Shown here: in pieces, positions 5,121-53,128 of the stretch
Position numbering within the stretch: position 1 is the stretch's first letter
Layout of the letters: each line of letters begins with the position of its first letter
Origin: Bacteroidales bacterium
GTDB taxonomy: Bacteria; Bacteroidota; Bacteroidia; Bacteroidales; UBA932
Direction: 5' to 3'
DNA: 58,348 bases
Assembly (NCBI GenBank): GCA_017509685.1
Contig: JAFWPA010000034.1
Location: forward strand, 1-58,348
The notes under the pieces: generated by a model
Databases searched by the model: none
What the model was told of the DNA's origin: nothing
The model's input: the letters and a program-made list of their open reading frames with translations, nothing else
Made by a program: the position numbers and the translations under genes

Positions 5121-7715
5121 ATGACCAAAAAGCTTTTACTACTCATATCAGCGGTACTTCTTCTCACCGGTTGCTCCGGTGGGAAGAAGTCTCTGGTTAT
5201 AGGCGTATCGCAGTGCAGCGACGACATCTGGCGCAGCAAGCTGAACGACGAACTCTCCCTCGCGGCCCGCGTGGAGGGGGTGACGCTGCGTTTTTCATCG
5301 GCCGATGACGACAGCCAGAAGCAAATGGCGCAAATCCGCCGCTTTGCCGAAGAAGGCGTGGACCTGCTCATTGTCTCGCCCAACCAGTCGCACACCATTA
5401 CCCCTGCCGTAGAAGAAGCTTTTGACGCCGGCATCCCGGTCATCCTGTTCGACCGGAAAATCGACTCGCACAAATACACCGCCTTCATCGGGGCCGACAA
5501 TGTGGAGATTGGCCGCATCATGGGGCACTACATCGCCGATTTCCTGAACAAGAAAGGCCGGGTGGTAGAAATTCCGGGCCTGGAGGGTTCCTCCCCTGCC
5601 GATGACCGCCACAAAGGCTTTGCAGAGGCACTTGCGCAGTATCCCGGCATGACGCTCACCGTGGCGCCGTACGGCGGCTGGCTCCGGGAAGGCGGCTTTG
5701 ACGCCATGGAAGAGGTGATGGCCCGCGGCATCCGGCCCGATGCCGTTTTTGGCCAGAACGACCGCATGGCGCAGGGCGCGCGGGAAGCCCTGGGCTCCCC
5801 TGCCGATGTGGCTTTCTTTGGCGTGGACGCCCTGCCGGAAGCCGGCCTGCAGGAAGTGATTGACGGAGAGCTCACCGCCTCCTACCTGTACCCCACCCGC
5901 GGCGACCTGGTGATGGAACTGGCCTTGAATATCCTTCGTGGAGCGCCCTTCCAGCGGGAGAACCTGCTGGAGAGTGCCCTGGTAGACAGCCGCAACGCCC
6001 GCATCCTCAAGATGCAGGAAGCGGAAGTGGCCAACCAGCGGGCCAATGTAGAGAACATCAACGCCCGGCTGGACACCTTTCTGATGGAATACAACACCCA
6101 GCGCATTATCATGTGGCTGGTGATTGCCTTTGCCTTCCTGGTGGTATTGATTGCCGCCCAGTCCTACTGGAGCTACATGCGGACCCGGGAACTCCAACAG
6201 AAACTGGAAGAAAGCACCGCGGCCAAGCTGCGTTTCTTCACCCAGGTGAGCCACGACCTCCGGACGCCCCTCACCCTGGTTGCCGGGCCGCTGGAGCATG
6301 TCCTGGAAGGCCCGCTGTCAGCGGACCAGCAGCAAACGCTCCTGATGGCACGCCGCAATGTGACCGTTCTTCAGCAACTGGTGAATAACATTTTGGATTT
6401 CAGGCGGATAGAGAGCGGGAACCGTCCGCTAAACGCCTCCCGCTTTGACCTCCCCGCCGCCGTGCGGGAATGGATGGGCGGGTTCAGCGGCACCTCCCAA
6501 AGCCTTACCTACGAAGGCTTCCCGGCCCTTACCGTCGAGGCCGATATGCGCCTTGTGGAGCGGGTGCTGTTCAACCTCCTGGGCAACGCCATCAAGCACA
6601 CCCGGCCGGACGGGCACATCACTGTTTCCGTGAAGCAGGAAGGAGCATCGGCACTCCTATCCGTTGCCGATGACGGAGAGGGCATCCCGCCGGAAAAACT
6701 GCCGTATATCTTCGAGGAATTCTACAAAGCCAATGAGTCCAGTAACGGTACCGGCATAGGCCTGGCGCTGATAAAAGCCGTAGCGGAGCTGCACAAGGGC
6801 AGCGTGAGCGTGGAAAGCACGCTGGGCAAGGGCTCCACCTTTACCCTGCGCCTTCCGCTGGTGCAAAAAGGCGCAAGCGTGAGCGAAGGCAAAGCGGCAT
6901 CGGCCTATACGGAGCGCTACGAGGAGACCTATCTCCGCGAGGACAGCCACAAGCAGGAGGCCGCCAGCCGGGTGAGCGAAAGCGACCGTCCCACCATCCT
7001 GGTGGTGGACGACAACGCAGACCTTCGCCGCTTCATTGGCACACTGCTGGAAGGCGAATACCGCATCCTGAGCGCCTGTGACGGCCGGGAGGCGCTGGAA
7101 AAAGCCACGCGCGAACTGCCGGACCTGGTGGTTTCGGACGTGATGATGCCCGTGATGGACGGCCTGGAACTTTGCAAGGCGCTCAAGGGGCAGCTGGCCA
7201 CCAGCCACATCCCCGTCATCCTCCTTACCGCCAAATCGCTGGAAGACCAGCGCGCGGAGGGCTACGATTCCGGGGCCGATGCCTACATTTCCAAACCCTT
7301 CAGCGAACGGGTGCTGCTTTCCCGTATCGGCAATCTCCTGAAAAGCCGCATCCTGCTCAAGGAGCATTACCTGGAAACCGGCGAAAGCGCCGCCCGGCCG
7401 CAGGAAAACGACTTCCTGTCCCGCTTCCGCACCCTGGTCCGCGGACGCCTGGGCGACGAAGACTTGAGTGTGGAACAGTTGGGTTCCGAACTGGGTCTCT
7501 CGCGCGTGCAACTGTATAGGAAGGTGAAAGCCCTTACCGGCTACTCCCCCGTTGAGCTGGTGCGCATTACGCGCCTGAAAGCGGCGGAACAGTTGCTCAA
7601 AACCACGGACAAAACCGTAGCGGAGGTCGCCTATGCCGTGGGCTTTGGCACACCGTCTTACTTCAGCAAATGCTACAAGGAACTCTTCGGCCATGTCCCG
7701 GGAGAAGAACGCTAG
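5121..7715 (+). CDS. Hybrid two-component system, periplasmic-sugar-binding sensor with AraC output
   Basis: An 864-residue single-chain regulator. Domains in order: signal with a lipobox-like cysteine (LLLTGC, possible lipoprotein signal or signal anchor); RbsB/LacI-like periplasmic sugar-binding domain (about 25-290); coiled linker; one membrane helix (about 328-350); HisKA with phospho-acceptor H378 in VSHDLRTPLTL; HATPase with GTGIGLALI; receiver with phospho-Asp D673 in VSDVMMPVMDG; and a C-terminal AraC-type helix-turn-helix (about 765-860). This architecture matches the fructose-binding regulator BT1754 of the B. thetaiotaomicron fructan locus, which uses a periplasmic-binding fold instead of the usual Reg_prop propeller. 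Inferred role: sense periplasmic fructose and activate the upstream GH32-MFS-kinase genes. It directly abuts the kinase gene. Confidence 0.93.
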   Translation: MTKKLLLLISAVLLLTGCSGGKKSLVIGVSQCSDDIWRSKLNDELSLAARVEGVTLRFSSADDDSQKQMAQIRRFAEEGVDLLIVSPNQSHTITPAVEEAFDAGIPVILFDRKIDSHKYTAFIGADNVEIGRIMGHYIADFLNKKGRVVEIPGLEGSSPADDRHKGFAEALAQYPGMTLTVAPYGGWLREGGFDAMEEVMARGIRPDAVFGQNDRMAQGAREALGSPADVAFFGVDALPEAGLQEVIDGELTASYLYPTRGDLVMELALNILRGAPFQRENLLESALVDSRNARILKMQEAEVANQRANVENINARLDTFLMEYNTQRIIMWLVIAFAFLVVLIAAQSYWSYMRTRELQQKLEESTAAKLRFFTQVSHDLRTPLTLVAGPLEHVLEGPLSADQQQTLLMARRNVTVLQQLVNNILDFRRIESGNRPLNASRFDLPAAVREWMGGFSGTSQSLTYEGFPALTVEADMRLVERVLFNLLGNAIKHTRPDGHITVSVKQEGASALLSVADDGEGIPPEKLPYIFEEFYKANESSNGTGIGLALIKAVAELHKGSVSVESTLGKGSTFTLRLPLVQKGASVSEGKAASAYTERYEETYLREDSHKQEAASRVSESDRPTILVVDDNADLRRFIGTLLEGEYRILSACDGREALEKATRELPDLVVSDVMMPVMDGLELCKALKGQLATSHIPVILLTAKSLEDQRAEGYDSGADAYISKPFSERVLLSRIGNLLKSRILLKEHYLETGESAARPQENDFLSRFRTLVRGRLGDEDLSVEQLGSELGLSRVQLYRKVKALTGYSPVELVRITRLKAAEQLLKTTDKTVAEVAYAVGFGTPSYFSKCYKELFGHVPGEER

Positions 7716-33700: not shown

Positions 33701-33708
33701 TATATTTG
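33701..33708 (+). promoter_or_regulatory. -7 box of the five-gene signalling operon
   Basis: TATATTTG, five bases before the ATG at 33714. No -33 element was found. Confidence 0.5.
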
Positions 33709-33713
33709 ACATT

Positions 33714-35636
33714 ATGGAAAAATGGTTGACCACTTGTGTGTTCTTCGTCGCTGTAAGCCTGGTGCTTGCCGCGCAGAACAACCCATACGGTATCGATGAC
33801 GACTGTTATGCCCTGTACCAGAAGACAGAGAACCAGCTGGGGCAGCCTGGCTTCCGGAGAGCTAACGAGGAACTGCTGAGCAAGGCAGTGGAAAAAGGGG
33901 ACGCGAAAGCCCAGACGCTCTATTATGTAGAACTTTTGAAAAACAGCACGGAGGTGCTGAAAGACAAGCCGGTAACCACTCTGGAAGAGGATACCGCCGT
34001 CCTTGCTTTGATGGAACAGGTAAAGAGCGTGGCCTCGGACCTGAACCAGACACAGTTATTCTATTACTCCTACGAAATCGTCCAGAATTACTTCTACAGC
34101 CACGGCAAACTGGTCCATACCATGGAACTGGTCCAGGCCATGCAGGAAGAGGCCATCTCGCGGAAAGAGCCTTATGGCATCTGGATGGGAGACCGCTACC
34201 TGATAGCGCTTTACATCGGCCAGAATGACTATATTTCGGCCAAGAAATACATTAAGGAGGCCCTCCAGGTCTATGAGACCACCACCGACCCCGTCATCAA
34301 GCGGGAATCGGCCACACGCCTGTACTGTGACATGTCGGACACCTTCCCCATCGGCAACGACTCCGTCCCCTATTTCCTGGATAAAGCCGACGCCGCCCGT
34401 CTCTTCCACATGGACACGCTCCGCTGCGAATACCACCACGCCAAGCTGGCCGCTTACCAGCGGGACGTCAAACGGTATGAATCGGCCCGGGACTATTGCC
34501 TGTCCGATCCCCACCTGGCGCAAATCAGCGCTACCGCAGCCAAGATGTTCGGCTATATCGACAAGCTCGTTTACGGGGAGCAGATCGAAGACTTTGACAT
34601 CGTGACCATGTCCAAACACCTCCGGGAGGTCAAGTATATCGCCAACATTGCAGAAGAGTACAACTACAAGGAGCTGGCTTTCAACATAGAGAAGCACCTG
34701 GTGGCATACGAGGAACAGGTCCTGGCATCGGCCAATCAGTCCAGGCTGTCGGAAATCGAGGCCAAGATGGGCAACGATGTATTGTCGGCCCAGATCAGCG
34801 AAGAGACGCATCGCACTCAACGGGCCATGCGCGCGGTGATGCTCCTTATCATCGTCATCCTCATGGTCATCTCGCTCTTCCTGTTCATCTATACCAGCAA
34901 TCTGCGAAGGACCAACGAAAAAGTGAGGATGGCCGATGCCGCCAAAACCCGTTTCGTCCAGAACATGAGTCATGAAGTCCGCACGCCCCTGAACGCCATC
35001 GTGGGCTTCTCCCAGTTGCTGTCCCTTCCGGATGGCAGTTTCCCCGAGGAAGAGAAGGCGGAATTCAGTTCCCACATCGTCAACAACACCAAGATGCTCA
35101 CCATGCTGCTGGACGACATCCTCAATGCATCGGCCATGGACAGCGGGAACTACAGCATCCAGTATGAGGAAGGGGAAATGAACTATATGGCTTTGGCCGC
35201 CATATCCAGTTCGGAACACCGTCTGCAGCCCGGCGTACGCATGTATTACGCTCCCGAAACAGAGGGACCTTTCACGTTCATGACAGACCCGCGCCGTGTG
35301 CAGCAAATCCTCATCAACCTGCTCACCAACGCCTGCAAGCATACGTCTTCCGGAGAAATCAAGCTGTCCAGTTCCCTGACGGAACATCCCGGCATGGTCA
35401 CGTATGCCGTCACGGACACCGGCCCTGGAGTCCCGCCGGAACAGGCCGAAAAGGTTTTCGAGCGCTTTACCAAGCTGAATGACTTTGTCCAGGGCACCGG
35501 TCTGGGCCTAAGCATCTGCCGGGATATCGCCAGCCGCATGGGGGCCAAAGTCTATATGGATACCACCTATCAGGAAGGCGGCGCCCGCTTTGTGCTGGAG
35601 TTGCCCTGTGAGCCCAACCAGGAACAAAAGAAATGA
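33714..35636 (+). CDS. Membrane sensor histidine kinase with helical-repeat sensor
   Basis: A 640-residue kinase. A signal peptide (MEKWLTTCVFFVAVSLVLAAQ) is followed by a periplasmic helical sensor of about 345 residues rich in short TPR-like helix pairs, beginning with NNPYGIDDDCYALY. A membrane helix (about 368-392) leads to a HisKA domain with phospho-His H420 in SHEVRTPLNAIVGFS and a HATPase with N box NACKHT, G1 DTGPGVP and G2 GTGLGLSI. All key boxes are intact, so it should be active. No receiver is fused. The gene overlaps the next by ATGA. Ligand unknown. Confidence 0.88.
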   Translation: MEKWLTTCVFFVAVSLVLAAQNNPYGIDDDCYALYQKTENQLGQPGFRRANEELLSKAVEKGDAKAQTLYYVELLKNSTEVLKDKPVTTLEEDTAVLALMEQVKSVASDLNQTQLFYYSYEIVQNYFYSHGKLVHTMELVQAMQEEAISRKEPYGIWMGDRYLIALYIGQNDYISAKKYIKEALQVYETTTDPVIKRESATRLYCDMSDTFPIGNDSVPYFLDKADAARLFHMDTLRCEYHHAKLAAYQRDVKRYESARDYCLSDPHLAQISATAAKMFGYIDKLVYGEQIEDFDIVTMSKHLREVKYIANIAEEYNYKELAFNIEKHLVAYEEQVLASANQSRLSEIEAKMGNDVLSAQISEETHRTQRAMRAVMLLIIVILMVISLFLFIYTSNLRRTNEKVRMADAAKTRFVQNMSHEVRTPLNAIVGFSQLLSLPDGSFPEEEKAEFSSHIVNNTKMLTMLLDDILNASAMDSGNYSIQYEEGEMNYMALAAISSSEHRLQPGVRMYYAPETEGPFTFMTDPRRVQQILINLLTNACKHTSSGEIKLSSSLTEHPGMVTYAVTDTGPGVPPEQAEKVFERFTKLNDFVQGTGLGLSICRDIASRMGAKVYMDTTYQEGGARFVLELPCEPNQEQKK

Positions 35637-36841
35637 AAAAGTTTGTCCTCATACTGATGCTTCTGGCAGTCGCTTTTACGGCCGCCGCCCAGAACAATGC
35701 ATATGGAATTGACGACGCATGCTTTCCATTCTTTACCACGGCCGAACACTCCGTGGACGACTTCGAATCCGATGTCTTTGAAACGGCTATGCAACAGTTG
35801 CTGGAAACCGCCGTCCGAAAGAAAGACACCAAAGCCCAGACACTGTATTATGTTGATCGGCTCAAACGGACATCCCACCTGGCCCAGCATGAACGGAATA
35901 AGGACCTGGGGGCATGGGACAGCCAGGAATGGAACCGGAGGCTGGAGGAAGACAAGGAAACCGTCCAGCGCATTGCCCGGGCCACCGGGTATATGCAGTA
36001 TTACTATTATGCCTCCGAGCTGTGCCAGACTTATTATTATAATACAGCGCAGAGTGTTCAGGCATCGGCTATGCTCAGTGACATGATGGCCGAAGCCAAG
36101 GAGACCGGGGACCAGTACGCCATGTGGAAGACCCTCATCTACCTGGCCAAACTGTATCAGCGCACCAGCGACCGTATCAGCACCCAGAAGTACTTGCTGG
36201 AGGCCGTGCACATCTACGAGACGTCTCAGGATCCCACCATCCAGCGCCAAAGCATGACGCTCCCCTTCTGTGACCTGGCCGATACCTATCCGGTAGCCTC
36301 GGACTCGGCCCGTCTCTTTTACCGGAAGGCGGAAGACTGCCAGGCAACCCGGTATGACACCCTGCGGGTGAATTACTACAAGGCCCAGCTGGCCGCCTGG
36401 GACAACGACCTTCCTGCCTACCGCCTCAACCGGGACTATTGCCGGTCCGTCACGTCGTTCCCCAGTCTCATCCGGGGCGGCAGCGCCTGTCTGGACTGCA
36501 TGGATAAAATGCTGGCGAAGGCGCCTTTTGGACAATACCGGGACAAGATTCAGGAACTGTATTCCCGTCAGCAGCTGGATTTCTTATCCAGCCTGGCCGC
36601 GAAACTGGAACAATGGGAGGCATCGGCCACCATACAGGTCCGGCATGTGTCCCGCCTCTATTTCGATATTTATTTCATTGACAGCCAACGCCTGGAGGAG
36701 TTGTCGGCCCAGTACGGACATCATCGTCTGTCCGAAGACCTGGAGCAGGCATCGAAAAGGGTGACACGGATTTCCATTCTGGTGGCCGTGCTGCTTATCC
36801 TGCTGGCCTCAGGCATCTTACTAATAACCAAAAAGAAATGA
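35633..36841 (+). CDS. Kinase-less paralogue of the adjacent sensor
   Basis: A 402-residue protein with signal peptide and a sensor clearly paralogous to the neighbouring kinase's: it begins NNAYGIDDACFPFF and shares KAQTLYYV, the TTDP/SQDP spacer and the DTLR.xYYKAQLAA block in the same order. It ends with one membrane helix (ISILVAVLLILLASGILLI) and KKK, and no kinase domain follows. This is either a decoy/accessory sensor that pairs with the kinase, or a duplicated gene that lost its kinase. The stop overlaps the receiver start (ATGA). No frameshift is seen. Confidence 0.8.
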   Translation: MKKFVLILMLLAVAFTAAAQNNAYGIDDACFPFFTTAEHSVDDFESDVFETAMQQLLETAVRKKDTKAQTLYYVDRLKRTSHLAQHERNKDLGAWDSQEWNRRLEEDKETVQRIARATGYMQYYYYASELCQTYYYNTAQSVQASAMLSDMMAEAKETGDQYAMWKTLIYLAKLYQRTSDRISTQKYLLEAVHIYETSQDPTIQRQSMTLPFCDLADTYPVASDSARLFYRKAEDCQATRYDTLRVNYYKAQLAAWDNDLPAYRLNRDYCRSVTSFPSLIRGGSACLDCMDKMLAKAPFGQYRDKIQELYSRQQLDFLSSLAAKLEQWEASATIQVRHVSRLYFDIYFIDSQRLEELSAQYGHHRLSEDLEQASKRVTRISILVAVLLILLASGILLITKKK

Positions 36842-37257
36842 TTCCTTTCTACGCACAAGACCACGACTATTCCCGGTTCAACGTACTGGCCGTGGACGAC
36901 ATTCCCCTGAACCTGCTGCTGGTTCAGAAGATGTTGTCCCGATTCAATTTCAAAATCCGCACGGCAACGGGCGGGCAGCAGGCGCTGGACGCGGTGGCAG
37001 AACTGAAACCCGACCTCATCCTGCTGGACCTGATGATGCCCGGCATAGATGGTTTCGAGGTCATTCGCCGCGTTCGGGAGAACCCGGAGACGGCAGACAT
37101 CCAGATTGTCATCCTGAGTGCCCTCAACTCCCAGGAAGACGTAGTAAAAGGCTTCAACGCGGGTGCCAACGACTTCATCATGAAGCCCATCATCATGGAA
37201 AAACTCCTCACCTGCGTAGTGACACAGCTGCAGATTGCCGAAAGCAAGCGATCATAG
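36838..37257 (+). CDS. Stand-alone response-regulator receiver
   Basis: A 139-residue single receiver domain. Visible: acidic pair AVDDIP, phospho-acceptor D64 in LLDLMMPGIDG, Ser in VILSALN, and K116 in IMKP. It lacks any DNA-binding or enzymatic output. Expected partner is the kinase two genes upstream. The response may be passed to another protein, as with CheY or Spo0F. It abuts the next gene (TAG then ATG). Confidence 0.92.
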   Translation: MIPFYAQDHDYSRFNVLAVDDIPLNLLLVQKMLSRFNFKIRTATGGQQALDAVAELKPDLILLDLMMPGIDGFEVIRRVRENPETADIQIVILSALNSQEDVVKGFNAGANDFIMKPIIMEKLLTCVVTQLQIAESKRS

Positions 37258-38568
37258 ATGAAAAGGGCCTTGACGCTGCTCCTGATGGTTTTTCTGTGCC
37301 TGATTTCCCAGGCGCAGATTGTGAACCGTCTCCGAGTGGACCAGGTCACATTCCAGCGCTATGCCCGGGGACGCATGCAGGAATTCAATCCCGATAACCT
37401 GACACTGGCCGATTCCCTGTATGCCGAAGGAGTACAAAAGAACGATTTCCGCTACAAGTGCCTGGCGCTGTCGCTGGAATTCCCCGTCTGCTATGCTACC
37501 GAAGACTATGAGCGGATGGATGCGGCCGTGCAGGAAATCAAGGAACTCATCGGGGATCGGAAAGACCTCCGGGAGTTCTATTTCCCCACCCTGCACGAAT
37601 ACTGCCAGTTCCTGGTGCATATCGGCCGTTCCGGAGACGCCCTTCTGGAAGCCCGCTCGATGGAGCGCATTGCATCGGCCGAAAAGAAACCGCTGGGCAA
37701 GATGTACTCCTACCGCATCATCGGCCTCATCCAAAGTTACCGGGAAAACCATTATCTGGCTGTACAGAACTTCGAAAAGGCCATGAAGTTTTCCAAGGAG
37801 GCACGCGCAGAGCAGGACCTTCCCAACCTGTACGTGCTCATGGCGCAGGAATGCATCTATATGGAAGACTTCGCCAAGGCGTCCGATTATTGTGCCATGG
37901 CCGAACAATACCAGGAGTTCAATGATGCCATCCGGCTCAAATGCCTCATGACGCGGGCCGCCATTTGCTACGCATGGGGGCGCAAGGACGAATTCCAGAA
38001 ATATTACCGGGAATTGAAGGCCGATCTTCGCTACCCTCACCAGACCGACGCCGACACCCGTACGGAGATGGACATTTGCTACCTCCGTTCCCTGGGACTG
38101 CTGAATCAGGCGCTTTCCCTGGCCGATTCCCTGGGAACGTCCCGTGCCCGTATGGAGCAAAAACACGGCTTGTATGCAGAATTGGGGGCCTATAACCAGG
38201 CATACCTTCAGCTTGCCGGCCTCATGTCAGAGAAAGACTCCACCTACATCAAGGTCCAGAATGAAGACCTGGCCATCATGGACGCCGAGATGAACAACGC
38301 CCAGCTCCGGGAAGAGGCCCAGCGGCTGCAGGCCCGGAACCAGATTACCATCCTGCTGGGTTTCCTGTTCATGTTCGCCATCGCATTTCTCTCCATCCTG
38401 GTGCAGCAGTGGCGTCTGCGGGAAAACCTGGACCAGATGAAAAAGCGAAACACGGAGATGCTCCGTGCCCGCAGGGCCTACCAGCGGGCGCTGGATGCCA
38501 AGGAGGCGGAGAACAATATGAAAATCAAGATACTGCAAAACCGAAAGTCTTCAACGATCAAGTTATGA
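37258..38568 (+). CDS. Signal-peptide helical-repeat membrane protein with cytoplasmic coiled coil
   Basis: A 436-residue protein. A signal peptide (MKRALTLLLMVFLCLISQAQ) is followed by a periplasmic helical-repeat domain with TPR-like turns (YAWGRKDEFQKYYREL, LYAELGAYNQAYLQLAGL). There is one membrane helix (ITILLGFLFMFAIAFLSILV) and then a 45-residue charged coiled coil. This is the layout of a sensor kinase whose kinase is missing, and sequence likeness to the two upstream sensors is weak. It may be a third sensor or a scaffold. The stop overlaps the next ATG (ATGA). Confidence 0.7.
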   Translation: MKRALTLLLMVFLCLISQAQIVNRLRVDQVTFQRYARGRMQEFNPDNLTLADSLYAEGVQKNDFRYKCLALSLEFPVCYATEDYERMDAAVQEIKELIGDRKDLREFYFPTLHEYCQFLVHIGRSGDALLEARSMERIASAEKKPLGKMYSYRIIGLIQSYRENHYLAVQNFEKAMKFSKEARAEQDLPNLYVLMAQECIYMEDFAKASDYCAMAEQYQEFNDAIRLKCLMTRAAICYAWGRKDEFQKYYRELKADLRYPHQTDADTRTEMDICYLRSLGLLNQALSLADSLGTSRARMEQKHGLYAELGAYNQAYLQLAGLMSEKDSTYIKVQNEDLAIMDAEMNNAQLREEAQRLQARNQITILLGFLFMFAIAFLSILVQQWRLRENLDQMKKRNTEMLRARRAYQRALDAKEAENNMKIKILQNRKSSTIKL

Positions 38569-38987
38569 AACTGTCTTCCCTGATAAAATACCACAAAAAT
38601 GAACTGGTCGCCCTCCTGCTTTTCATGATAGGCGGAACGCTGGGAATGCTGGGACTTATCCAACGGGTACCCCTGGTCCTGGGAATCCTGGGTATTGTCA
38701 TCCTGGCGTCCGGTCTGTTCTACTATTGCCTCCACTATTCTTCAGAGAGCGTGTACAAGAACTACTACAAGGAGAGTTATGAGATCGAGCATGAGACCAT
38801 TGCCGACGAAATCCGCAAGTCCATGGTCTATCACCGCTATCAGGAAGCCGTCATCAACCGCTATGAGAGTGCCTGCCGGGACTTGGGCCTCTCCGAAGAA
38901 CAGAAAGACTGGCTGCTCACCCTTCTGATGGAGCAGAAGAATAAAGTTGATCAAGAACTGGAAGCCCAAGGGGGCGGACACATTTAG
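38565..38987 (+). CDS. Small two-TM protein, unknown
   Basis: A 140-residue protein starting MKLSSLIKYHKNELVALLL at 38565; a longer frame upstream is a shadow of the preceding gene. Two membrane helices (about 15-35 and 40-60) are followed by about 80 charged helical residues (YKESYEIEHETIADEI). It could be the output or an anchoring subunit of the preceding signalling proteins. Its stop overlaps the stop of the convergent Sel1-like gene. Confidence 0.65.
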   Translation: MKLSSLIKYHKNELVALLLFMIGGTLGMLGLIQRVPLVLGILGIVILASGLFYYCLHYSSESVYKNYYKESYEIEHETIADEIRKSMVYHRYQEAVINRYESACRDLGLSEEQKDWLLTLLMEQKNKVDQELEAQGGGHI

Positions 38988-40300
38988 ACACTGATTCGTT
39001 TGAGCCCGTCACCCACGGCCTCCTTTTCATAAATCTGTCCGTCTGTGGTTCTGTACCGGCCCGGGAAACCGGGCACCGGGGATGCGGTCACATCCGAGCC
39101 CAGCGGCCCTGCACCATAGATAATGATATCGCCCGGCTTGGGTCCGCTCACTTTGACAATGGCACCAACCAGCAGGATGCCGGCTATGATGGCGATAACC
39201 TCGCTGAAGATGGAAAGTGCGCCGCCCAGCAGATAGAAGAGCAGGTTGGCCATAAGTGTGGCGAGGATGTATTTCAACAGCGTCCACACGGTGAGCCGGC
39301 CTTGTTTTTTCAAATGGCCGATGCCCCTGATAAACACGAACACAAAGACCAGGATCCACAGCCAGGTGGCCCAGGTGCAGATGTCCGACATTAAACTATA
39401 AGTAGCGGGCTGACGGGTGAGATGGCACATGCCGTCGAAGCTGCCTATCATGCTGTCCACGTTCTCCCATACGCCATCGGCAATGAAGAACAGGGTGAAT
39501 CCGTTGAGCCAGCCATACGCGGCGCTGGTGCCAATAGAGACGGCCGAATCTCCCTTGAAGCAGAAGCCATAGAAGACGACGCCGATGAACACCACCAACA
39601 TCACCAGCAGCATCAGCAGTCCCTGCCACCACCTTCTGGAAACAATGGTGGACACGCTATTGCTGAAACAGTCCTGCAGGAAGTGGAAAGTGGCGTTGGA
39701 CGCCTTGCAGAAGAAAGACTGCCCGCGGGCGTTGTAATGCCAGATTTGCTGGAACACAAAACGCGGACGGGAGAGTACATTCACAGTTCCGTCCTTGTAC
39801 TTGAGGCTGTTACGGGCAAAGGCGTGACAGCTGTCGGCCGCCTGCCGGGTCCACTTCATGGCCAGATCGGCATCGTAATAAGGATTGTCCACGAAGGTGC
39901 TGTTGGGGGAAGCGATCTTCTTGCGGGAGTACTCCCCTGCCAGCTGATACATACAGTCGGGGTTGCCCTTTTCGGCACCCTTTTTCATCCACTTGATATA
40001 CCGGGCCGTTTCCTTTTTATCACGCATGACCTCCCAACCGGGGTTGCCGCCGCTTTCTTGGGCTAGTTTATACGTCAACGCCTTATAATTGCCGGCCGCA
40101 GCCAGTATGTCCGTGTAGCGCTGCAGGAGCGAATCCGGCGCCACGCCGTCTCCATGACACATGAGCACCTCCATGGACTTCAGGTTCCCGGCCTCGGCCT
40201 GTTCCTGCAGCCGCTTCACATCCTTCGGCCGCATCTTACACGACGGCAGAATGAGCAAAGCGCACAGGCCAATGGCAACAGTGGTCAGTATCTTCTTCAT
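38984..40300 (-). CDS. Sel1-repeat lipoprotein with membrane helices
   Basis: A 438-residue protein starting with a lipoprotein signal (LCALLILPSC). Two or three Sel1/TPR-like repeats follow (AEAGNLKSMEVLMCHGDGV, KKGAEKGNPDCMYQLAGEYS). After about residue 195 there are several membrane helices (GLLMLLVMLVVFIGVVF, WLWILVFVFVFI, FSEVIAIIAGILLVGAIV). The combination of an outer lipoprotein signal and a multi-pass domain is unusual, and the signal may instead be an inner-membrane lipoprotein signal. Function unknown. It is convergent with the operon above. Confidence 0.6.
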   Translation of the reverse strand: MKKILTTVAIGLCALLILPSCKMRPKDVKRLQEQAEAGNLKSMEVLMCHGDGVAPDSLLQRYTDILAAAGNYKALTYKLAQESGGNPGWEVMRDKKETARYIKWMKKGAEKGNPDCMYQLAGEYSRKKIASPNSTFVDNPYYDADLAMKWTRQAADSCHAFARNSLKYKDGTVNVLSRPRFVFQQIWHYNARGQSFFCKASNATFHFLQDCFSNSVSTIVSRRWWQGLLMLLVMLVVFIGVVFYGFCFKGDSAVSIGTSAAYGWLNGFTLFFIADGVWENVDSMIGSFDGMCHLTRQPATYSLMSDICTWATWLWILVFVFVFIRGIGHLKKQGRLTVWTLLKYILATLMANLLFYLLGGALSIFSEVIAIIAGILLVGAIVKVSGPKPGDIIIYGAGPLGSDVTASPVPGFPGRYRTTDGQIYEKEAVGDGLKRISV

Positions 40301-40355: not shown

Positions 40356-40988
40356 TCATTCTGAGACGGGACGCACTTTATGTCCGCGGAAACGCTCATC
40401 ATAGGTCCCTATGATATTGCTTTCAGAGAAGATTACATAGTACGCACTTAACGGACCTTCCTCGTCAAGCGAGGAAGACCATATATATTTTCCGCCGTAG
40501 GGAATGAAGATAGCGTTTTTGTTCACCAGATAGGTGATCATCCAACCGTATTGTCCGTTAACGAACTTCAATTGCCACCGATAGTTATCATTGATTTGTG
40601 TTGAAATGAGTTCCTCCACCTCCCGTTTCGTCGGCATTCTCCATTTACCGCCCAACTGTACGTGGGCGACATCGTCGGCGGCGTCCAGCACCACCTTGTT
40701 GTCTACCGTTCCGTAATAACTGCTATTGTTGTATTTGGTTAAAAACGGGGCATTATCGCCGTCGAGGTGGTACCACTGATAGGATGCAAAGCTGAAAACC
40801 TCTTTTGTCTGCGTTTCCCCCCAGGCATAAGAGTCGCCGTAACCCTCCGGTGCCTCAGCCCCCAAATTGGCATTTGCCCATTTTACGGAAAGCCCTATGT
40901 CCACTGCGCCAATTCTGAATTTCTGGTTCTCCTTCCCACAAGAAAACATCACCAGTGCGGCCGCTGCAATAAAAACGATTCTTCTCAT
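40356..40988 (-). CDS. FISUMP-like lipoprotein
   Basis: A 210-residue lipoprotein starting MRRIVFIAAAALVMFSC at 40988. The body has the pattern of Fibrobacter-succinogenes-major-paralogous-type domains: DIGLSVKWANANLGA, SYAWGETQTKE, GKWRMPTKREVEELIS, YIWSSSLDEE, GHKVRPV. These surface proteins have no known enzymatic function. The start was chosen because the signal peptide begins there; the longer frame runs through the repeat element upstream. A -7 box TATCTTTG is found 20 nt upstream. Confidence 0.8.
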   Translation of the reverse strand: MRRIVFIAAAALVMFSCGKENQKFRIGAVDIGLSVKWANANLGAEAPEGYGDSYAWGETQTKEVFSFASYQWYHLDGDNAPFLTKYNNSSYYGTVDNKVVLDAADDVAHVQLGGKWRMPTKREVEELISTQINDNYRWQLKFVNGQYGWMITYLVNKNAIFIPYGGKYIWSSSLDEEGPLSAYYVIFSESNIIGTYDERFRGHKVRPVSE

Positions 40989-41008
40989 CTTTGCGATTTG
41001 GTTTTCTA

Positions 41009-41016
41009 CAAAGATA
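41009..41016 (-). promoter_or_regulatory. -7 box of the FISUMP-like gene
   Basis: TATCTTTG on the minus strand, 20 nt from the ATG at 40988. Confidence 0.5.
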
Positions 41017-41030
41017 GCAAATAATTGGGA

Positions 41031-41133
41031 CTTTCCCCCAGTCCGTGTGCAAAACGCCCCCCCTATGCACACGGAGCATACTTTTCCCCCGGTCGGTGTG
41101 CACCAGAAGGCGTTTTTGCACACGGAGAACATA
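41031..41133. repeat. Two tandem imperfect repeats, each an inverted repeat
   Basis: Unit 1 is 41031-41080 and unit 2 is 41081-41133. Each starts CTTT(T)CCCCC, then CGTGTGCA or GGTGTGCA, a spacer of about 14 nt, and ends TGCACACGGAG...CATA. In unit 1 the arms CCGTGTGCA (41043-41051) and TGCACACGG (41066-41074) pair perfectly over 9 bp. It lies in a 229-bp intergenic space between divergent genes. Confidence 0.75.
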
Positions 41134-48492: not shown

Positions 48493-51400
48493 TCAGTACT
48501 TCAGTTTCTCAATAATAACAGGGCCCATCAGACCGGAAGGGAGGAGTTCTGACGCCGGGCTGTAAAAAGGAATCACGGTGTACGTGTGCTTTTCGGCCCC
48601 GGGCTGGGCGTCACCGATGAGGCGATTGGGCCAGGTGTTCACCACCCGTATCTCCAGCGTATTCTTCCCGGGATGCAGCGGAACCCGGCAGATGGCTTTA
48701 TAGGGAGCCTTCCACAAGAAACGGATTTGTTCCCCGTTCACATAAAGGTCGGCCATTTCTCCTACGGAACCCAGGTCGATGGAGAGGGCTTCAGGCACAT
48801 CCTTCTTTCCCAATGTGAAACTGTTGCGATAGATGATAGTTCCGGAGAAGTATTTCACAGCGGGGTCATCGGATTCCGTAAGGGAGCTCAGTTGGTGCCA
48901 AGTCCGTTCTCCGACAGGTGCTTCCAGTCCCTCAAACGTAAGGGCCCAGGGACCGTCCAGAGCAATGATACCGGACGGTATGCCCTCCCGTTTTTTCCCT
49001 GTTTTTCCAAAAGCCGGGTCGAAAACCACAAATACCGCCTGACGGGCCTCCAAGCTAAGCCGATGACCGTCATAGCAGGACTCCAGAACGGTCCCTGTTT
49101 CCGGATCCCATACCTGTGCAGGCGTAGACCCATCCCGGAAAGAGACAGGGGCACAAACCTGCGCGTCGCTGAGATTTCCCACCCAGTAAATATTCCTATC
49201 ACCGTTACAACGGTGCACATAACGCAGCTTGGAGGGTGCCGAATAGGCAAAATCGGGCTGAATTCCCAGCCGATTCAAGACAATAGCGACATTCTCTGTA
49301 TGCACATTGGTCCGTCCGGAATGCCAGATATCGGCTACCAGGCGGTCGAATTCGGCACAGTCATCGGACAAACTGGCCGGACGCAGAGGCTCCCGGCCGC
49401 ACAGCTGGGCACCTTCTCCGACCAAAGAGGCAAGACGACGAAGCACTTCCAGGCTCATCACGCGATTCTTTTCCTCCAGGACCAGCAGGCGATAGGTCAT
49501 TCCGGACGCTGTCACCAGCTTTCCGTCCTGCACCGATACCTGGTTCAACAGAGCATGGGGGTTGGCAAAATCGTAGGCATATCCCTCGGGAATCTGCGGC
49601 AGTTCCTGCCCGTACAGGCCGGTAATGTTGGTATCCTCCCCATAGTACCAGAGGATATCGGCTACTGCCTGGCCCTGCTGGAGCATGTAGCTGCTGCGGG
49701 CCAGATAGTCGGTCCAATAGCGGGCATATTCCGCCCAGGTCTCATGACGGGAGAACCACTGGCCGAAGATCATCAGCCCCATGCCGGGACGAAGGTCGTC
49801 AGAGGGCTGGTGAGGGCTTTCATGGATAACAAAGCGGTTGAGGCCGCACGACAGGGCCAGGTCGGCCGTGGCCTTCAGATTGCCAGGAAAATAAACATAA
49901 GCTCCGTTCAGTCCACTGGCTGTAAATGATTCGGCAGCAACCAGTTTCTGTCCGTAGAGATGGGCGACGGAAGCCGATTCCCGGATATCGGCCTCGGCCA
50001 TGCCTGCAGCACCGGTCCAAATGGCCGACATCGGAATGGCTGCCGTTCGTTTGAGATCCATGCCGTCTCCCACATAAAGCCTTCCCCCTTCGTGGGATTC
50101 GGTATAGCGTCCCTTCATACCGGCTTCTGCGCACAAGGTATTGATCCTGTCGTAATTCTCGGCAAAGAGTTCTCCTAGAGTCTGCCGCCAGTCAAAGAGG
50201 AAGCGTTCGCTTTCCGAGGAACTGTGGACCACTTCACCGGCCAAAACAGGCAGCCAGGGGATGAGGTCGTATCCGTTGCGCGAAGCAAATTCCAGCGCCA
50301 TCCCGGGCGTCCAAGTCATGGTACCGGCCTCGTAGCTGTCGGTTAGCAGGTAATCCAGCGGACGTCCCGCGGCCTCCTGATACATAGTCAAGTATGTGCG
50401 GAAATAGTTTTCCCAGGCCACTGCGTCCAATTTATCTACTTCCAATCCCGTAGCCTCGGCCGGGGCTGGATGGTTCATCTTCCCGATAAGAGATGTGCCG
50501 AATCGGTAAATGCGCCATCTTCCCTGGGGTACTTTCCAGTGGAGTACGCCATCCTGCACGAACCTCGTGAGATCCATCGCTTCCCGGGCAGCAACACCCT
50601 CCGGCGTCGGCTGCTCCAGCAGGTCGTTCGGGGCGGCGAATCCCGCCTTCTCCTGCGCCCGATGAATCTTGGGAACAGTATGCAGCACCCATTCGTGGAT
50701 GCGCGTACCCGTGGGTTCAATCACCGGAACACCGAAAGCGGCATAACTCGTATCGGCCACCGGGTTCACCACCATCAGGCGAAAATAACGGGCAGTGGTG
50801 ACGGGAATGTCGATGGTCTGCTCCACTACCCCGCAGGAAGGGATGTGACACACTTTTTCCCAGTGTTCCCCGTCCTGGCTGGAGAGCAAATAGTTGTTAT
50901 AGGAAGCCGACAGGGCAAAGTCGTCCCGCAGTTCACCGCCGGCCAGGGTAAGGGCACGAACGGTTACCGGGGCGGGAAAACTGTATTGGATCCAGGAATG
51001 GGTACCCTCCGGGTTCTTGGGCAGTTCGGCTCCGTCATTCACATCTCCATTGGAGAGCATGCCCACGGTAAAATCCCCCGCCAGGGAAGACACCTCTGCG
51101 CCCAGCTCTTCCAGGGAACACTCTTCTTCCGGCAAACGCAGCGCCACCACGGCAATGTCCTGGTACCACTGTGGCAAAGCATTGAAAACTGCGCTATAGG
51201 CCCCCGCATCCTGGTTCTGGTATCGACCGATGGTCCGGTAGGGTTCCGGCAGCATAATAGTCTGCGCCTTCTTTCCGCCTCCCTTCACTTCCATACTGCG
51301 CCAAGTAAGCTTTTTCATGGCCTGCTCCGGACGCACCCAGGGACCGCCCGTGGAACTCCAGCCGGGAGCGGAAGCAATGGTCACTTCCATGCCCAACGAA

Positions 51401-51714
51401 TCGGCCAGTTGCACGGCGTAGCGGAAATCATCCTTCCACTCCTGCTGCATATAAGGCACCCTTTCCTGCACGGGCCGAACCATCTGCATCATCGCGCCAC
51501 CGGCATCGAATTGATGAAATCCGCCGATTCCGGCCCGATGCATCCACTCCAGGTCGGCCTTGATTCCCTCCTTGGAGATATTCCCGTCTATCCAATGCCA
51601 CCAGACCTGGGGCCTGGCCTGCTGGGGAGGGTTGACAAAAACTGCTTCCTGCGCGCCGGTAACGGCACACAGGAAGCAGCTTAAAGATACCAGAAACAGT
51701 TTGCTTTTTTGCAT
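48493..51714 (-). CDS. GH106-type alpha-L-rhamnosidase
   Basis: A 1073-residue secreted enzyme. A signal peptide (KLFLVSLSCFLCAVTGAQ) precedes a barrel whose start QVWWHWIDGNISKEGIKADL and middle WTPGMALEFASRNGYDL are characteristic of the GH106 alpha-L-rhamnosidase family (PF17132). A catalytic Glu could not be named confidently. Ig-like/jelly-roll modules and a final galactose-binding-like domain (about 960-1073, YRNSFTLGKKDVPE...LYVNGEQ) follow. The enzyme cleaves terminal alpha-rhamnose from plant or bacterial polysaccharides. It is the last gene of the PUL, four bases after GH5. Confidence 0.87.
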   Translation of the reverse strand: MQKSKLFLVSLSCFLCAVTGAQEAVFVNPPQQARPQVWWHWIDGNISKEGIKADLEWMHRAGIGGFHQFDAGGAMMQMVRPVQERVPYMQQEWKDDFRYAVQLADSLGMEVTIASAPGWSSTGGPWVRPEQAMKKLTWRSMEVKGGGKKAQTIMLPEPYRTIGRYQNQDAGAYSAVFNALPQWYQDIAVVALRLPEEECSLEELGAEVSSLAGDFTVGMLSNGDVNDGAELPKNPEGTHSWIQYSFPAPVTVRALTLAGGELRDDFALSASYNNYLLSSQDGEHWEKVCHIPSCGVVEQTIDIPVTTARYFRLMVVNPVADTSYAAFGVPVIEPTGTRIHEWVLHTVPKIHRAQEKAGFAAPNDLLEQPTPEGVAAREAMDLTRFVQDGVLHWKVPQGRWRIYRFGTSLIGKMNHPAPAEATGLEVDKLDAVAWENYFRTYLTMYQEAAGRPLDYLLTDSYEAGTMTWTPGMALEFASRNGYDLIPWLPVLAGEVVHSSSESERFLFDWRQTLGELFAENYDRINTLCAEAGMKGRYTESHEGGRLYVGDGMDLKRTAAIPMSAIWTGAAGMAEADIRESASVAHLYGQKLVAAESFTASGLNGAYVYFPGNLKATADLALSCGLNRFVIHESPHQPSDDLRPGMGLMIFGQWFSRHETWAEYARYWTDYLARSSYMLQQGQAVADILWYYGEDTNITGLYGQELPQIPEGYAYDFANPHALLNQVSVQDGKLVTASGMTYRLLVLEEKNRVMSLEVLRRLASLVGEGAQLCGREPLRPASLSDDCAEFDRLVADIWHSGRTNVHTENVAIVLNRLGIQPDFAYSAPSKLRYVHRCNGDRNIYWVGNLSDAQVCAPVSFRDGSTPAQVWDPETGTVLESCYDGHRLSLEARQAVFVVFDPAFGKTGKKREGIPSGIIALDGPWALTFEGLEAPVGERTWHQLSSLTESDDPAVKYFSGTIIYRNSFTLGKKDVPEALSIDLGSVGEMADLYVNGEQIRFLWKAPYKAICRVPLHPGKNTLEIRVVNTWPNRLIGDAQPGAEKHTYTVIPFYSPASELLPSGLMGPVIIEKLKY

Positions 51715-51718
51715 AGCC

Positions 51719-53128
51719 CTATTTCAATTTCATTGCATCCAGGATAGGCTGAATCCACTCTCCGGTCTTTTCATCCCGAATCATGAAGGGTTCGCGATAG
51801 CCCCAAAGGTGGGAGGAGAACCCCCGCGCCTCGGATGCTTCGCGCATGAAGCCCAGATACCGGCAGCGGGAAGCCTCATCGGCCGTGTTGACAGCACCGT
51901 ATTCGCCCATGTTCAGCGGACGGCCATGCGTTTCGCCCCATTTCTGGCAGTAATCCAGGTCGCGAAGGATTGGGGCTTTTTCTTCTTCCGTACCGCTCCA
52001 AGCCACGTCCTTGCTTTGTTCGGCCATGGCGTAGGCCAGGCCCTGATGGGTGAACAGGTGGGGCAGATAATAGTGAAATTCTACAATCAGGTTCCACTCG
52101 TCCTTGGGAAAATCCAGGTAATTGAGGGTCCAGTGCTGTCCCAGATTGGGCGTACCGACAATGATGGTTCGGCCGGGGTTGATGGGGCGGATGGTCTTGA
52201 TCAGTCGGGCGATCATCTCGTTCCACTTATCGGCACCCATATGGGGATTCGGCTCATTGAGAAGGTCAAAGAAAAGCGTTTCGTCCGAGTAGTCCTTATA
52301 GTGGCGGGCAATCTGCTCCCAAAAACTCACCAGGCGCTCATAATTGTCGTTCTCAGAGATATTATCGTCTCCACCGCCCATATTGATATAGGGATAGTAA
52401 TGCTGGTCGATGGAAACAGCCAGGCCGGCATCCAGCGCCACGTCCACAATGTGGTCAACCTTGGCAAAGAAGGCGGGGTCGATGGTATAGGGATACTCGA
52501 ACGAAGCATGCTTGGCCCAGCAGACGTCCAGACGGATGCTCTTGAAACCCACTTCGGCAATGGAACGGATTTCATCATCGGCAAGTGGTGCATCGCACTC
52601 GTAACCCGGATGAAGATTCCCGTCCACAACGGCGTTGAGGTTGATGCCGGCGCCCAGCCTCTTATTTCGTTCAAAGGCCAGGGCCGCTTCGGCGGGAATA
52701 TCCTGTTTCGGATTCAGTTCCGCCTCCAGCGAAGCCTTGTCACGGCTCAAATGGAAATAAGTATTGGTGTAAGAGGAGGGATCCGGTCCGACTGTCAAGG
52801 GCCGCTCCAGGTTGCCAGGCCTCCCGAAATTGAGGTTCAAGTCCAGGGTTCCGTCCGGATTGAAACGGTACAGTCCGGCCGCACCCATACCGTTGGTCGT
52901 CTGGGGTAAATCGACCGTCATGGCCGATTTGTCCCAAACATAGTTACCCTGGATGTCGTAGTTGGAGTTGGACTCACTTGTGATAGAGAAGGTTCCGTCT
53001 TCGTCGAAGGACAAGGTGACAAGCGCCTTGTCCCGGAGGCCATACCACTCTCCCATGATCGTCTGCTCCTTCTCGCAGGCGGAAAGAAGTATCACGGCGG
53101 CAGCCAATAGGGTGTGCTTAATATTCAT
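51719..53128 (-). CDS. GH5 endo-beta-glycanase lipoprotein with lipocalin-like domain
   Basis: A 469-residue lipoprotein (signal ends LLSAC). Residues about 20-130 form a lipocalin-like beta domain (IMGEWYGL, DGTFSITS). The C-terminal TIM barrel has the acid/base E292 in LLNEPNPHM and the nucleophile E409 in NMGEYGAVN, the GH5 pair. Family members cleave beta-1,4-glucans, xyloglucan or mannans internally. It starts four bases after the surface-lipoprotein gene, probably on the cell surface. Its subfamily cannot be assigned by eye. Confidence 0.9.
   Translation of the reverse strand: MNIKHTLLAAAVILLSACEKEQTIMGEWYGLRDKALVTLSFDEDGTFSITSESNSNYDIQGNYVWDKSAMTVDLPQTTNGMGAAGLYRFNPDGTLDLNLNFGRPGNLERPLTVGPDPSSYTNTYFHLSRDKASLEAELNPKQDIPAEAALAFERNKRLGAGINLNAVVDGNLHPGYECDAPLADDEIRSIAEVGFKSIRLDVCWAKHASFEYPYTIDPAFFAKVDHIVDVALDAGLAVSIDQHYYPYINMGGGDDNISENDNYERLVSFWEQIARHYKDYSDETLFFDLLNEPNPHMGADKWNEMIARLIKTIRPINPGRTIIVGTPNLGQHWTLNYLDFPKDEWNLIVEFHYYLPHLFTHQGLAYAMAEQSKDVAWSGTEEEKAPILRDLDYCQKWGETHGRPLNMGEYGAVNTADEASRCRYLGFMREASEARGFSSHLWGYREPFMIRDEKTGEWIQPILDAMKLK

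Follow-up and report, generated by a model that had tools for sequence, protein, structure and literature searches.

A five-gene membrane signalling unit in a Bacteroidales contig

Contig JAFWPA010000034.1 of the Bacteroidales (UBA932) assembly GCA_017509685.1, a draft of 91 contigs that is 79% complete, was analysed over its whole 58,348 nt, referred to here as the window. At positions 33714-38987 it carries five co-directional genes, which we call HK, HKlike, REC, TPR4 and TM5:

33701..33708, + strand: TATATTTG, which fits TAnnTTTG, the -7 promoter element of Bacteroidota, and lies 5 nt upstream of the HK start
33714..35636, + strand: HK, 640 aa; N-terminal hydrophobic segment, tetratricopeptide repeat (TPR)-like periplasmic sensor, transmembrane segment (TM) at about 374-392, HisKA (H420) and HATPase_c
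35633..36841, + strand: HKlike, 402 aa; paralogue of the HK sensor that lacks the kinase, with a single TM at about 380-398 and almost no cytoplasmic tail
36838..37257, + strand: REC, 139 aa; stand-alone receiver with D20, D21, D64, S94 and K116 and a conserved N-terminal extension
37258..38568, + strand: TPR4, 436 aa; N-terminal hydrophobic segment, helical TPR-like region, TM at about 363-381, cytoplasmic coiled coil (by eye)
38565..38987, + strand: TM5, 140 aa; two TMs (about 14-53) and a conserved helical tail of about 80 residues

The first-pass annotation of this DNA, made from the sequence alone, had described one intact kinase (H420), a kinase-less paralogue of its sensor, a stand-alone receiver (D64), a third sensor-like protein with a coiled coil and a small two-TM protein, with no DNA-binding domain among them, and profile searches and hydropathy bore out this inventory. 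HK matched the Pfam families HisKA (E 9.3e-14) and HATPase_c (E 2.2e-24), and its catalytic residues H420, N539, D568, G570 and G596 were each present in 68 of 68 aligned rows (the alignments include one locus, L024, that is identical to another, L106), giving HK both the phospho-acceptor histidine and the HATPase_c N and G boxes of a two-component kinase. HKlike aligned with the HK sensor over residues 7-392 (30% identity, E 6e-54; hhalign 100%) and ends 4 residues past its TM. REC matched Response_reg (E 2.4e-28) over residues 16-126 of 139, all remaining Pfam matches falling below the cut-off. In the REC alignment, D20, D21 and D64 were found in 79 of 80 rows (the other row being a gap) and K116 in all 80, and S94 was present in 77 rows and replaced by threonine in 3. 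REC thus holds the acidic pair, phospho-acceptor aspartate, threonine or serine, and lysine of a receiver, and with no output domain it is a single-domain response regulator. By hydropathy, HK, HKlike and TPR4 each consist of an N-terminal hydrophobic stretch and one TM, and TM5 has two TMs. The TPR assignment of the sensors rests on weak matches, to TPR_10 (E 0.18) in HK and to the TPR protein RapF (E 0.003) for TPR4. Scans of all five proteins against Pfam and NCBIfam profiles returned no DNA-binding domain. HK very probably transfers phosphate to REC, and the proposal that a lone receiver of this kind must act on another protein is supported.

According to the first-pass annotation, nearly all genes of the unit are joined by ATGA overlaps. 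This holds for three of the four junctions (1/2, 2/3 and 4/5) but not for REC and TPR4, which merely abut, the TAG of REC being followed by ATG at the very next base. The list of open reading frames (ORFs) also has a longer 192-aa version of TM5 that starts upstream, inside TPR4. Across the relatives, TAnnTTTG lay within 16 nt upstream of 29 of 67 HK starts (4-6 nt from the ATG), compared with 70 of 18,154 among all ATGs. It preceded none of 79 REC starts and none of 82 TM5 starts. Before TPR4 it occurred in 4 of 82 cases, three of them loci with inverted TPR4-TM5 and one a locus in which TPR4-TM5 stands apart from REC, and the two matches among kinase-less genes belonged to split HK genes. 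The presence of the element before HK but not before REC or TM5 supports a single transcript from HK to TM5, which we predict is probably leaderless or near-leaderless. In the window, TAnnTTTG-ATG sites were found at 1340, 17930, 26301(-), 28868(-), 28905, 33624(-) and 33714, with a spacing of 4-7 nt. Seven of eight motif-ATG sites open ORFs of at least 445 aa (HK and six other long ORFs), and leaderless transcripts may be common in the genus.

The unit is conserved in relatives

Of 400 genomes belonging to the genus, 76 had a TM5 match at E <=1e-3. After the weak match in G391 was dropped, 75 unit-bearing genomes stood against 325 without the unit, G345 being counted among the 75 on a TM5 fragment. 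TM5-like matches in three genomes, G177, G270 and G391, were set aside as weak (E 1.9e-4 to 3.9e-4); they covered mainly the TM region and had no REC, TPR4 or TM5 around them. We read 81 loci, one per genome and the window included, 74 of them in the genus and 7 in sister genera; strong TPR4 matches were found in seven genomes of two sister genera. In an order-wide draw of 295 genomes, the window's own genome gave the sole strong match, but the rows listed for this draw include just a single further member of the genus and two of the family.

REC, TPR4 and TM5 were all present in 79 of the 81 loci, both exceptions lying at contig ends. TPR4 and TM5 were co-directional in every locus, and REC ran in the same direction as this pair in 70 of 79 loci and was inverted in 9. 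The gene directly upstream of REC was HK in 47 loci and HKlike in 16 (63 of 81 together); in the remaining 18, the kinase lies elsewhere, the sensor has diverged, the kinase is split or no kinase was seen in the stretch. With the genes of the unit found again, in largely unchanged order, in 80 other genomes, the unit is beyond chance, and the absence of a conserved gene order, which the first-pass annotation had named as refuting its reading, was not what we observed. Some loci carry additional genes: a gene for the prolipoprotein diacylglyceryl transferase Lgt lies between REC and TPR4 in L096, L109, L112, L113 and L131 (L128 at a contig end), and in six loci (L140, L155 and L157-L160) a gene for an MscS-type mechanosensitive channel (family c7) and a conserved gene of about 308 aa (c8) are convergent with the module. 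Rumen or omasum is named in the records of three of eight relatives.

The unit family is very likely linked to fimbriae

Neighbouring genes were grouped into families (c0-c13) clustered from the unit loci themselves, so their recurrence counts are partly circular, and each family name rests on the match of one representative. The families included:

c2: FimD tip adhesin (NF052322, E 1.2e-100)
c13: Mfa_like_1 fimbrillin (E 3.7e-29)
c5: DUF5119
c4: DUF3575
c0: no family match; profile match to c2 only (97.7%)

Lgt was another recurrent neighbour family. At least one fimbrial-family gene was present in the stretch read in 62 of the 80 other loci. FimD exceeded the cut-off in about 64 of the 75 unit-bearing genomes versus 110 of the 325 others (174 of 400 overall); best E-values were compared with 1.6e-50, converted from a 170-bit cut-off, on at most two candidates per genome, which makes these counts lower bounds. 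Among the matches listed, at least 28 of the 75 unit-bearing genomes had FimD no more than 18.5 kb from TM5, and in one further case it was on the same contig 32 kb away. The chance of finding 28 or more genomes with FimD at this distance is 3e-22 if each genome holds two copies, 9e-18 for three, 2e-12 for five and 4e-6 for ten. In the module stretches, FimD and c0 stood beside or near the unit. We also read 20 longer stretches, a non-random sample chosen for known c1 or FimD or as the own genome's fimbrial contig. Loci in them run from a second lone receiver (8 stretches) through c3 to c1, followed in divergent orientation by DUF3575/DUF5119 genes, several fimbrillins, FimD and c0. The second receiver, 54-72% identical to REC, adjoins c3 at the opposite end of the fimbrial locus in L180, L182, L183, L187, L193, L194, L197 and L198. 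Many relatives thus show the setting of a type V fimbria, with Mfa_like_1 fimbrillins and FimD near the unit, and the link to Fim/Mfa-type fimbriae known from FimS-FimR; near the unit in the window we found neither. Together, these data indicate that the unit family is very likely linked to fimbriae.

Two further families accompany the unit. Members of c1, read as lipoproteins of the fimbrillin superfamily, are about 360 aa long, have an invariant lipobox-like cysteine and gave no Pfam match; in a profile comparison, 302 columns of c1 could be aligned with the Mfa_like_1 fimbrillins (hhalign 98.1%, E 8e-14), against 1.8% for TPR4 as the negative control. The best match of c1 to PDB profiles (E 0.15) was judged to be chance. 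A strong c1 match was found in 65 of 75 unit-bearing genomes versus 3 of 325 without the unit, a lower bound as at most five candidates were scored per genome. The three c1-bearing genomes without the unit (G468, G546 and G654) are 67, 80 and 74% complete, and incomplete assembly may explain why it is missing there. Of 138 genomes sampled across the family, 3 had c1, and each of these also carried the unit. c1 directly adjoins the unit, co-directionally, in 16 of 80 loci (before HK in 9, before REC in 6 and after TM5 in 1). The c3 proteins are membrane regulators with an AraC-type helix-turn-helix (HTH); hydrophobic segments number 5 to 7 in each of 17 members, and members are just 24-32% identical to the first. 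c3 stood beside c1 in 16 of the 17 c1-bearing longer stretches, and c3 without c1 was not seen in the module loci. c3 is a possible DNA-binding output of the unit, and we suggest tentatively that REC might act through regulators of this type.

Several observations weigh against the fimbrial reading or against its extension to the window. No fimbrial family was found nearby in 18 of the 80 loci, several of them on short contigs, and FimD in about 110 of the 325 unit-less genomes means that the unit is not required for fimbriae. The genomes are related, so Fisher p-values overstate their independence and the counts themselves are the evidence. Strong c1 was missing from 10 of the 75 unit-bearing genomes, and c3 was seen in the stretch read for 12 of the 28 module loci with c1 nearby but not for the other 16. 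Around the unit in the window, a Pfam scan of some of the window's ORFs and a comparison of all ORFs of at least 70 aa with the fimbrial families recognised no fimbrial gene. The FimD of the same genome lies on another contig (G000:C53), c1 was not found among the 12 candidates scored (all there were), c3 matched through its HTH part only, giving no orthologue, and no second lone receiver was found in this genome. The lack of c1, c3 and a second receiver may reflect missing data in the incomplete assembly or a true absence. A different regulator of the AraC type, also with hydrophobic segments, is encoded about 11 kb from FimD in this genome. The genomes whose HK is most closely related to that of the window (G348, G405 and G862), however, have their unit near c0 and FimD or beside c1; for the window, the fimbrial role is therefore extrapolated from what is inferred for the family.

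Kinase-less sensors, TPR4 and TM5

The kinase-less gene occupies the same place, between HK and REC, in 16 of the 81 loci; 18 loci were first counted, and L108 and L154 were removed because their HK is split into two frames. Its frames span 399-432 aa in 15 loci and one is cut by the contig end, with a median identity of 39.7% over 19 aligned rows. In a tree of 84 sensors, 17 kinase-less proteins including that of the window fell into one clade of 20 rows (support 100/99), which also holds three kinase-bearing members and is separate from the main HK clade. The eighteenth kinase-less row, L154, lies in the main HK clade and is the split HK gene. The tree requires four changes between kinase presence and absence, at least three of them by starred branches. 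This suggests that the second-sensor clade is an old duplicate whose kinase was probably lost in most lines. Viral contigs searched with HKlike yielded no relative. An extra HK-HKlike pair close to that of the window was found in L019 (4088-7227), 15 bp after a 1129-aa lipoprotein-like gene and with no REC-TPR4-TM5 adjoining; the complete module is on another contig of the same genome.

TPR4 and the HK sensor are distant relatives by profile comparison (hhalign 96.3%, E 1.7e-9), and TPR4 has a layout like that of HK in which a coiled-coil-like cytoplasmic tail replaces the kinase. A 689-aa frame in G637 was 31% identical to TPR4 over residues 1-429 (E 1.6e-60) and matches the kinase too. The TPR4 frame was open in all 82 rows (419-454 aa), with a strongly conserved juxtamembrane region. 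TM5 matched no Pfam or NCBIfam family above cut-off, and its best match to PDB profiles (E 0.043, to an unrelated enzyme) was judged to be chance. Its tail is near-invariant, with H76 in 82 of 82 rows and H90 in 81. A structure predicted from six sequences was all helix, comprising the two TMs and three tail helices (79-90, 93-107 and 111-134), with a predicted local distance difference test score (pLDDT) of about 71-83 in the tail and 66 on average, and a predicted template modelling score (pTM) of 0.38.

A proposed fimbria-linked phosphosignalling module

Median pairwise identity was 81.7% for REC, 75.0% for TM5, 74.4% for the kinase, 60.5% for TPR4, 39.3% for the HK sensor and 39.7% for HKlike, a pattern of divergent sensors and conserved REC, TM5 and kinase that suggests varied input to a constant core. 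We further compared the parts by partial rank correlations of their distances over 52 loci (5-95% ranges in brackets). The TM5 tail correlated with the kinase (0.26 (0.14-0.36)); as REC and TPR4 lie between TM5 and HK, this is hard to explain by adjacency. The TPR4 tail correlated with TM5 at 0.40 and 0.43 (tail to tail, 0.43). Three points temper these figures: TPR4 and TM5 may correlate through being neighbours on the DNA, REC and the TM5 tail showed no residual correlation (-0.06), and the method is weak, recovering the expected pairs kinase-REC and kinase-own sensor at just 0.12 (0.00-0.24) and 0.11 (-0.03-0.23). TM5 as a direct partner of REC is thus not favoured, by a method that was weak for expected pairs too. 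Taken with caution, the correlations point to TPR4 and TM5 as subunits on the kinase side, a proposal whose odds we regard as even, and to REC acting on something else, with c3 as a candidate in relatives. The weak recovery of expected pairs and the presence of c3 in 12 of 28 c1 loci are the reasons why we hold the proposals of TPR4/TM5 subunits and a c3 output less firmly.

On balance, we favour a model that treats the unit as a FimS-like phosphosignalling module, linked to fimbriae and equipped with accessory membrane sensors. HK, HKlike and TPR4 would assemble as a periplasmic sensor in the inner membrane and read the state of fimbrial subunits or of c1, and TPR4 and TM5 would tune the kinase from the membrane. 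HK would then phosphorylate REC, and REC~P would act by protein contact, perhaps with a membrane-bound regulator of the AraC type that governs the fimbrial operon (c3 in relatives) or with the kinase complex itself. The first-pass annotation had suggested a multi-subunit receptor complex; that a single kinase, sensors lacking a kinase and a lone receiver form a conserved unit is supported, and the distance correlations weakly fit a membrane complex in contact with the kinase, but the annotation had missed the fimbrial context.

Three other explanations have to be weighed against this model. REC~P might act within the unit by binding the cytoplasmic tail of TM5 (or TPR4), which would make TPR4-TM5 the effector; the pair could, for instance, gate or handle precursors of fimbriae at the inner membrane, with no need for a transcription factor. 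The co-orientation of REC with TPR4-TM5 in 70 of 79 loci, the near-invariant TM5 tail (H76 in 82 of 82 rows) and the presence of the unit in a genome with no detectable c3 or c1, the window's own, all suit such an effector. Against it stand the 9 of 79 loci in which TPR4-TM5 is inverted relative to REC, the lack of any match of TM5 to a catalytic or transport family in Pfam, NCBIfam or PDB profiles, and the distance correlations, which despite the weakness of the method gave -0.06 for REC and the TM5 tail compared with 0.26 for the TM5 tail and the kinase. We therefore consider this explanation unlikely, though a serious competitor.

Alternatively, the unit could be a module for sensing the envelope or nutrients in general that is carried along with fimbrial islands, its linkage to them stemming from a variable genome region and not from function. 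The window's unit does stand apart from fimbrial genes, an Lgt gene separates REC from TPR4 in some loci, and the unit is patchy, a TM5 match being present in 76 of the 400 genomes. However, c1 tracks the unit (65/75 versus 3/325) even when some 20 kb away or on another contig, and adjoins it in three different arrangements, before HK, before REC or after TM5, which makes mere linkage improbable. Least probable of all, and by a wide distance, is an ordinary two-component pair accompanied by decaying duplicates, with HKlike and TPR4 as functionless remnants. It would account for a kinase-less HKlike in a clade with kinase-bearing members and for the fast divergence of the sensors, but the kinase-less gene is kept between HK and REC in 16 of 81 loci, in 15 of them with frames of 399-432 aa at 39.7% median identity, and TPR4 has an open frame in 82 of 82 rows and a strongly conserved juxtamembrane region, intact frames being the test applied here.

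Beyond the favoured fimbria-linked module, a bolder joint reading is conceivable, although we would sooner expect it to fail as a whole than to hold: HK, HKlike, TPR4 and TM5 might form a single hetero-oligomeric receptor kinase whose two kinase-less TPR sensors read fimbrial subunits or c1 on the periplasmic side. TM5 might represent a new family of membrane subunits that control the kinase through a conserved cytoplasmic helical bundle, and REC might relay to a membrane AraC-type regulator or, more boldly, to the invariant His76 of TM5, in a membrane-anchored phosphorelay. If true, the sensing of fimbria assembly would be coupled to fimbria transcription by a multi-part receptor. As c1 is almost exclusive to unit-bearing genomes, it is a ligand candidate for a TPR-like sensor kinase, and if the accessory sensors and TM5 do join the kinase, HK would exemplify a histidine kinase served by several membrane subunits of its own, from a lineage of Bacteroidales seen here as draft assemblies only.

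Comparison with known systems

The closest described counterpart is FimS-FimR of Porphyromonas gingivalis. Its kinase FimS has a TPR sensor and acts through FimR to control fimA (PMC11053733, PMC1974823; PMC5706477 agrees), and the signal it reads is stated as unknown (PMC11053733). In relatives, the unit shares with this system the link to Fim/Mfa-type fimbriae. The architecture of HK fits that of FimS, a TPR-type periplasmic sensor joined through a TM to a histidine kinase, with a weak TPR assignment; a point against the comparison is that HK is likened to FimS by architecture and description. FimR binds promoters, whereas the unit has no DNA-binding response regulator: REC lacks the DNA-binding part of FimR, and for this reason we do not file the unit as a member of FimS-FimR. 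Counterparts of HKlike, TPR4 and TM5 were not found described for FimS-FimR in the open-access literature.

DivK and CheY are single-domain (stand-alone) response regulators, and like them REC is a receiver domain only, with all catalytic residues. Unlike them, it is encoded within a membrane sensor operon together with two kinase-less sensors. The hybrid two-component systems (HTCS) of Bacteroides use the same building blocks of periplasmic sensor, HisKA kinase and receiver, and a complete one lies in the window at 5121-7715, with periplasmic binding protein, kinase, receiver and AraC HTH in one protein. In contrast, the parts of the unit are on separate genes and include no HTH, so that the unit is not an HTCS. 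DivL with CckA, named in PMC9430884, is a kinase system with a pseudo-kinase partner and offers an analogy, in that catalytically silent relatives may tune a kinase; the silent relatives in the unit, though, lack the whole transmitter and not merely its activity, and their partnership with HK is putative. As the first-pass annotation had supposed, no named system with this composition was found in the open-access literature, judged from listings and abstract openings. Judged by its genes, the unit appears to be a variant of fimbria-control two-component signalling that is new in composition.

Neighbouring genes in the window

Immediately downstream, at 38984-40300 (- strand), lies a gene for a 438-aa lipoprotein-like membrane protein with no Pfam match, which is convergent with TM5, their 3' ends overlapping by 4 nt. 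Shortly beyond, 40356-41132 (- strand) encodes a protein of 258 aa that weakly matches an Lcl_C-type domain (E 1.4e-6, below cut-off). Further along, at 48493-53128 (- strand), a glycoside hydrolase family GH106 alpha-L-rhamnosidase (E 4.6e-278) lies beside a GH5-type protein, probably as part of a glycan-degrading cluster.

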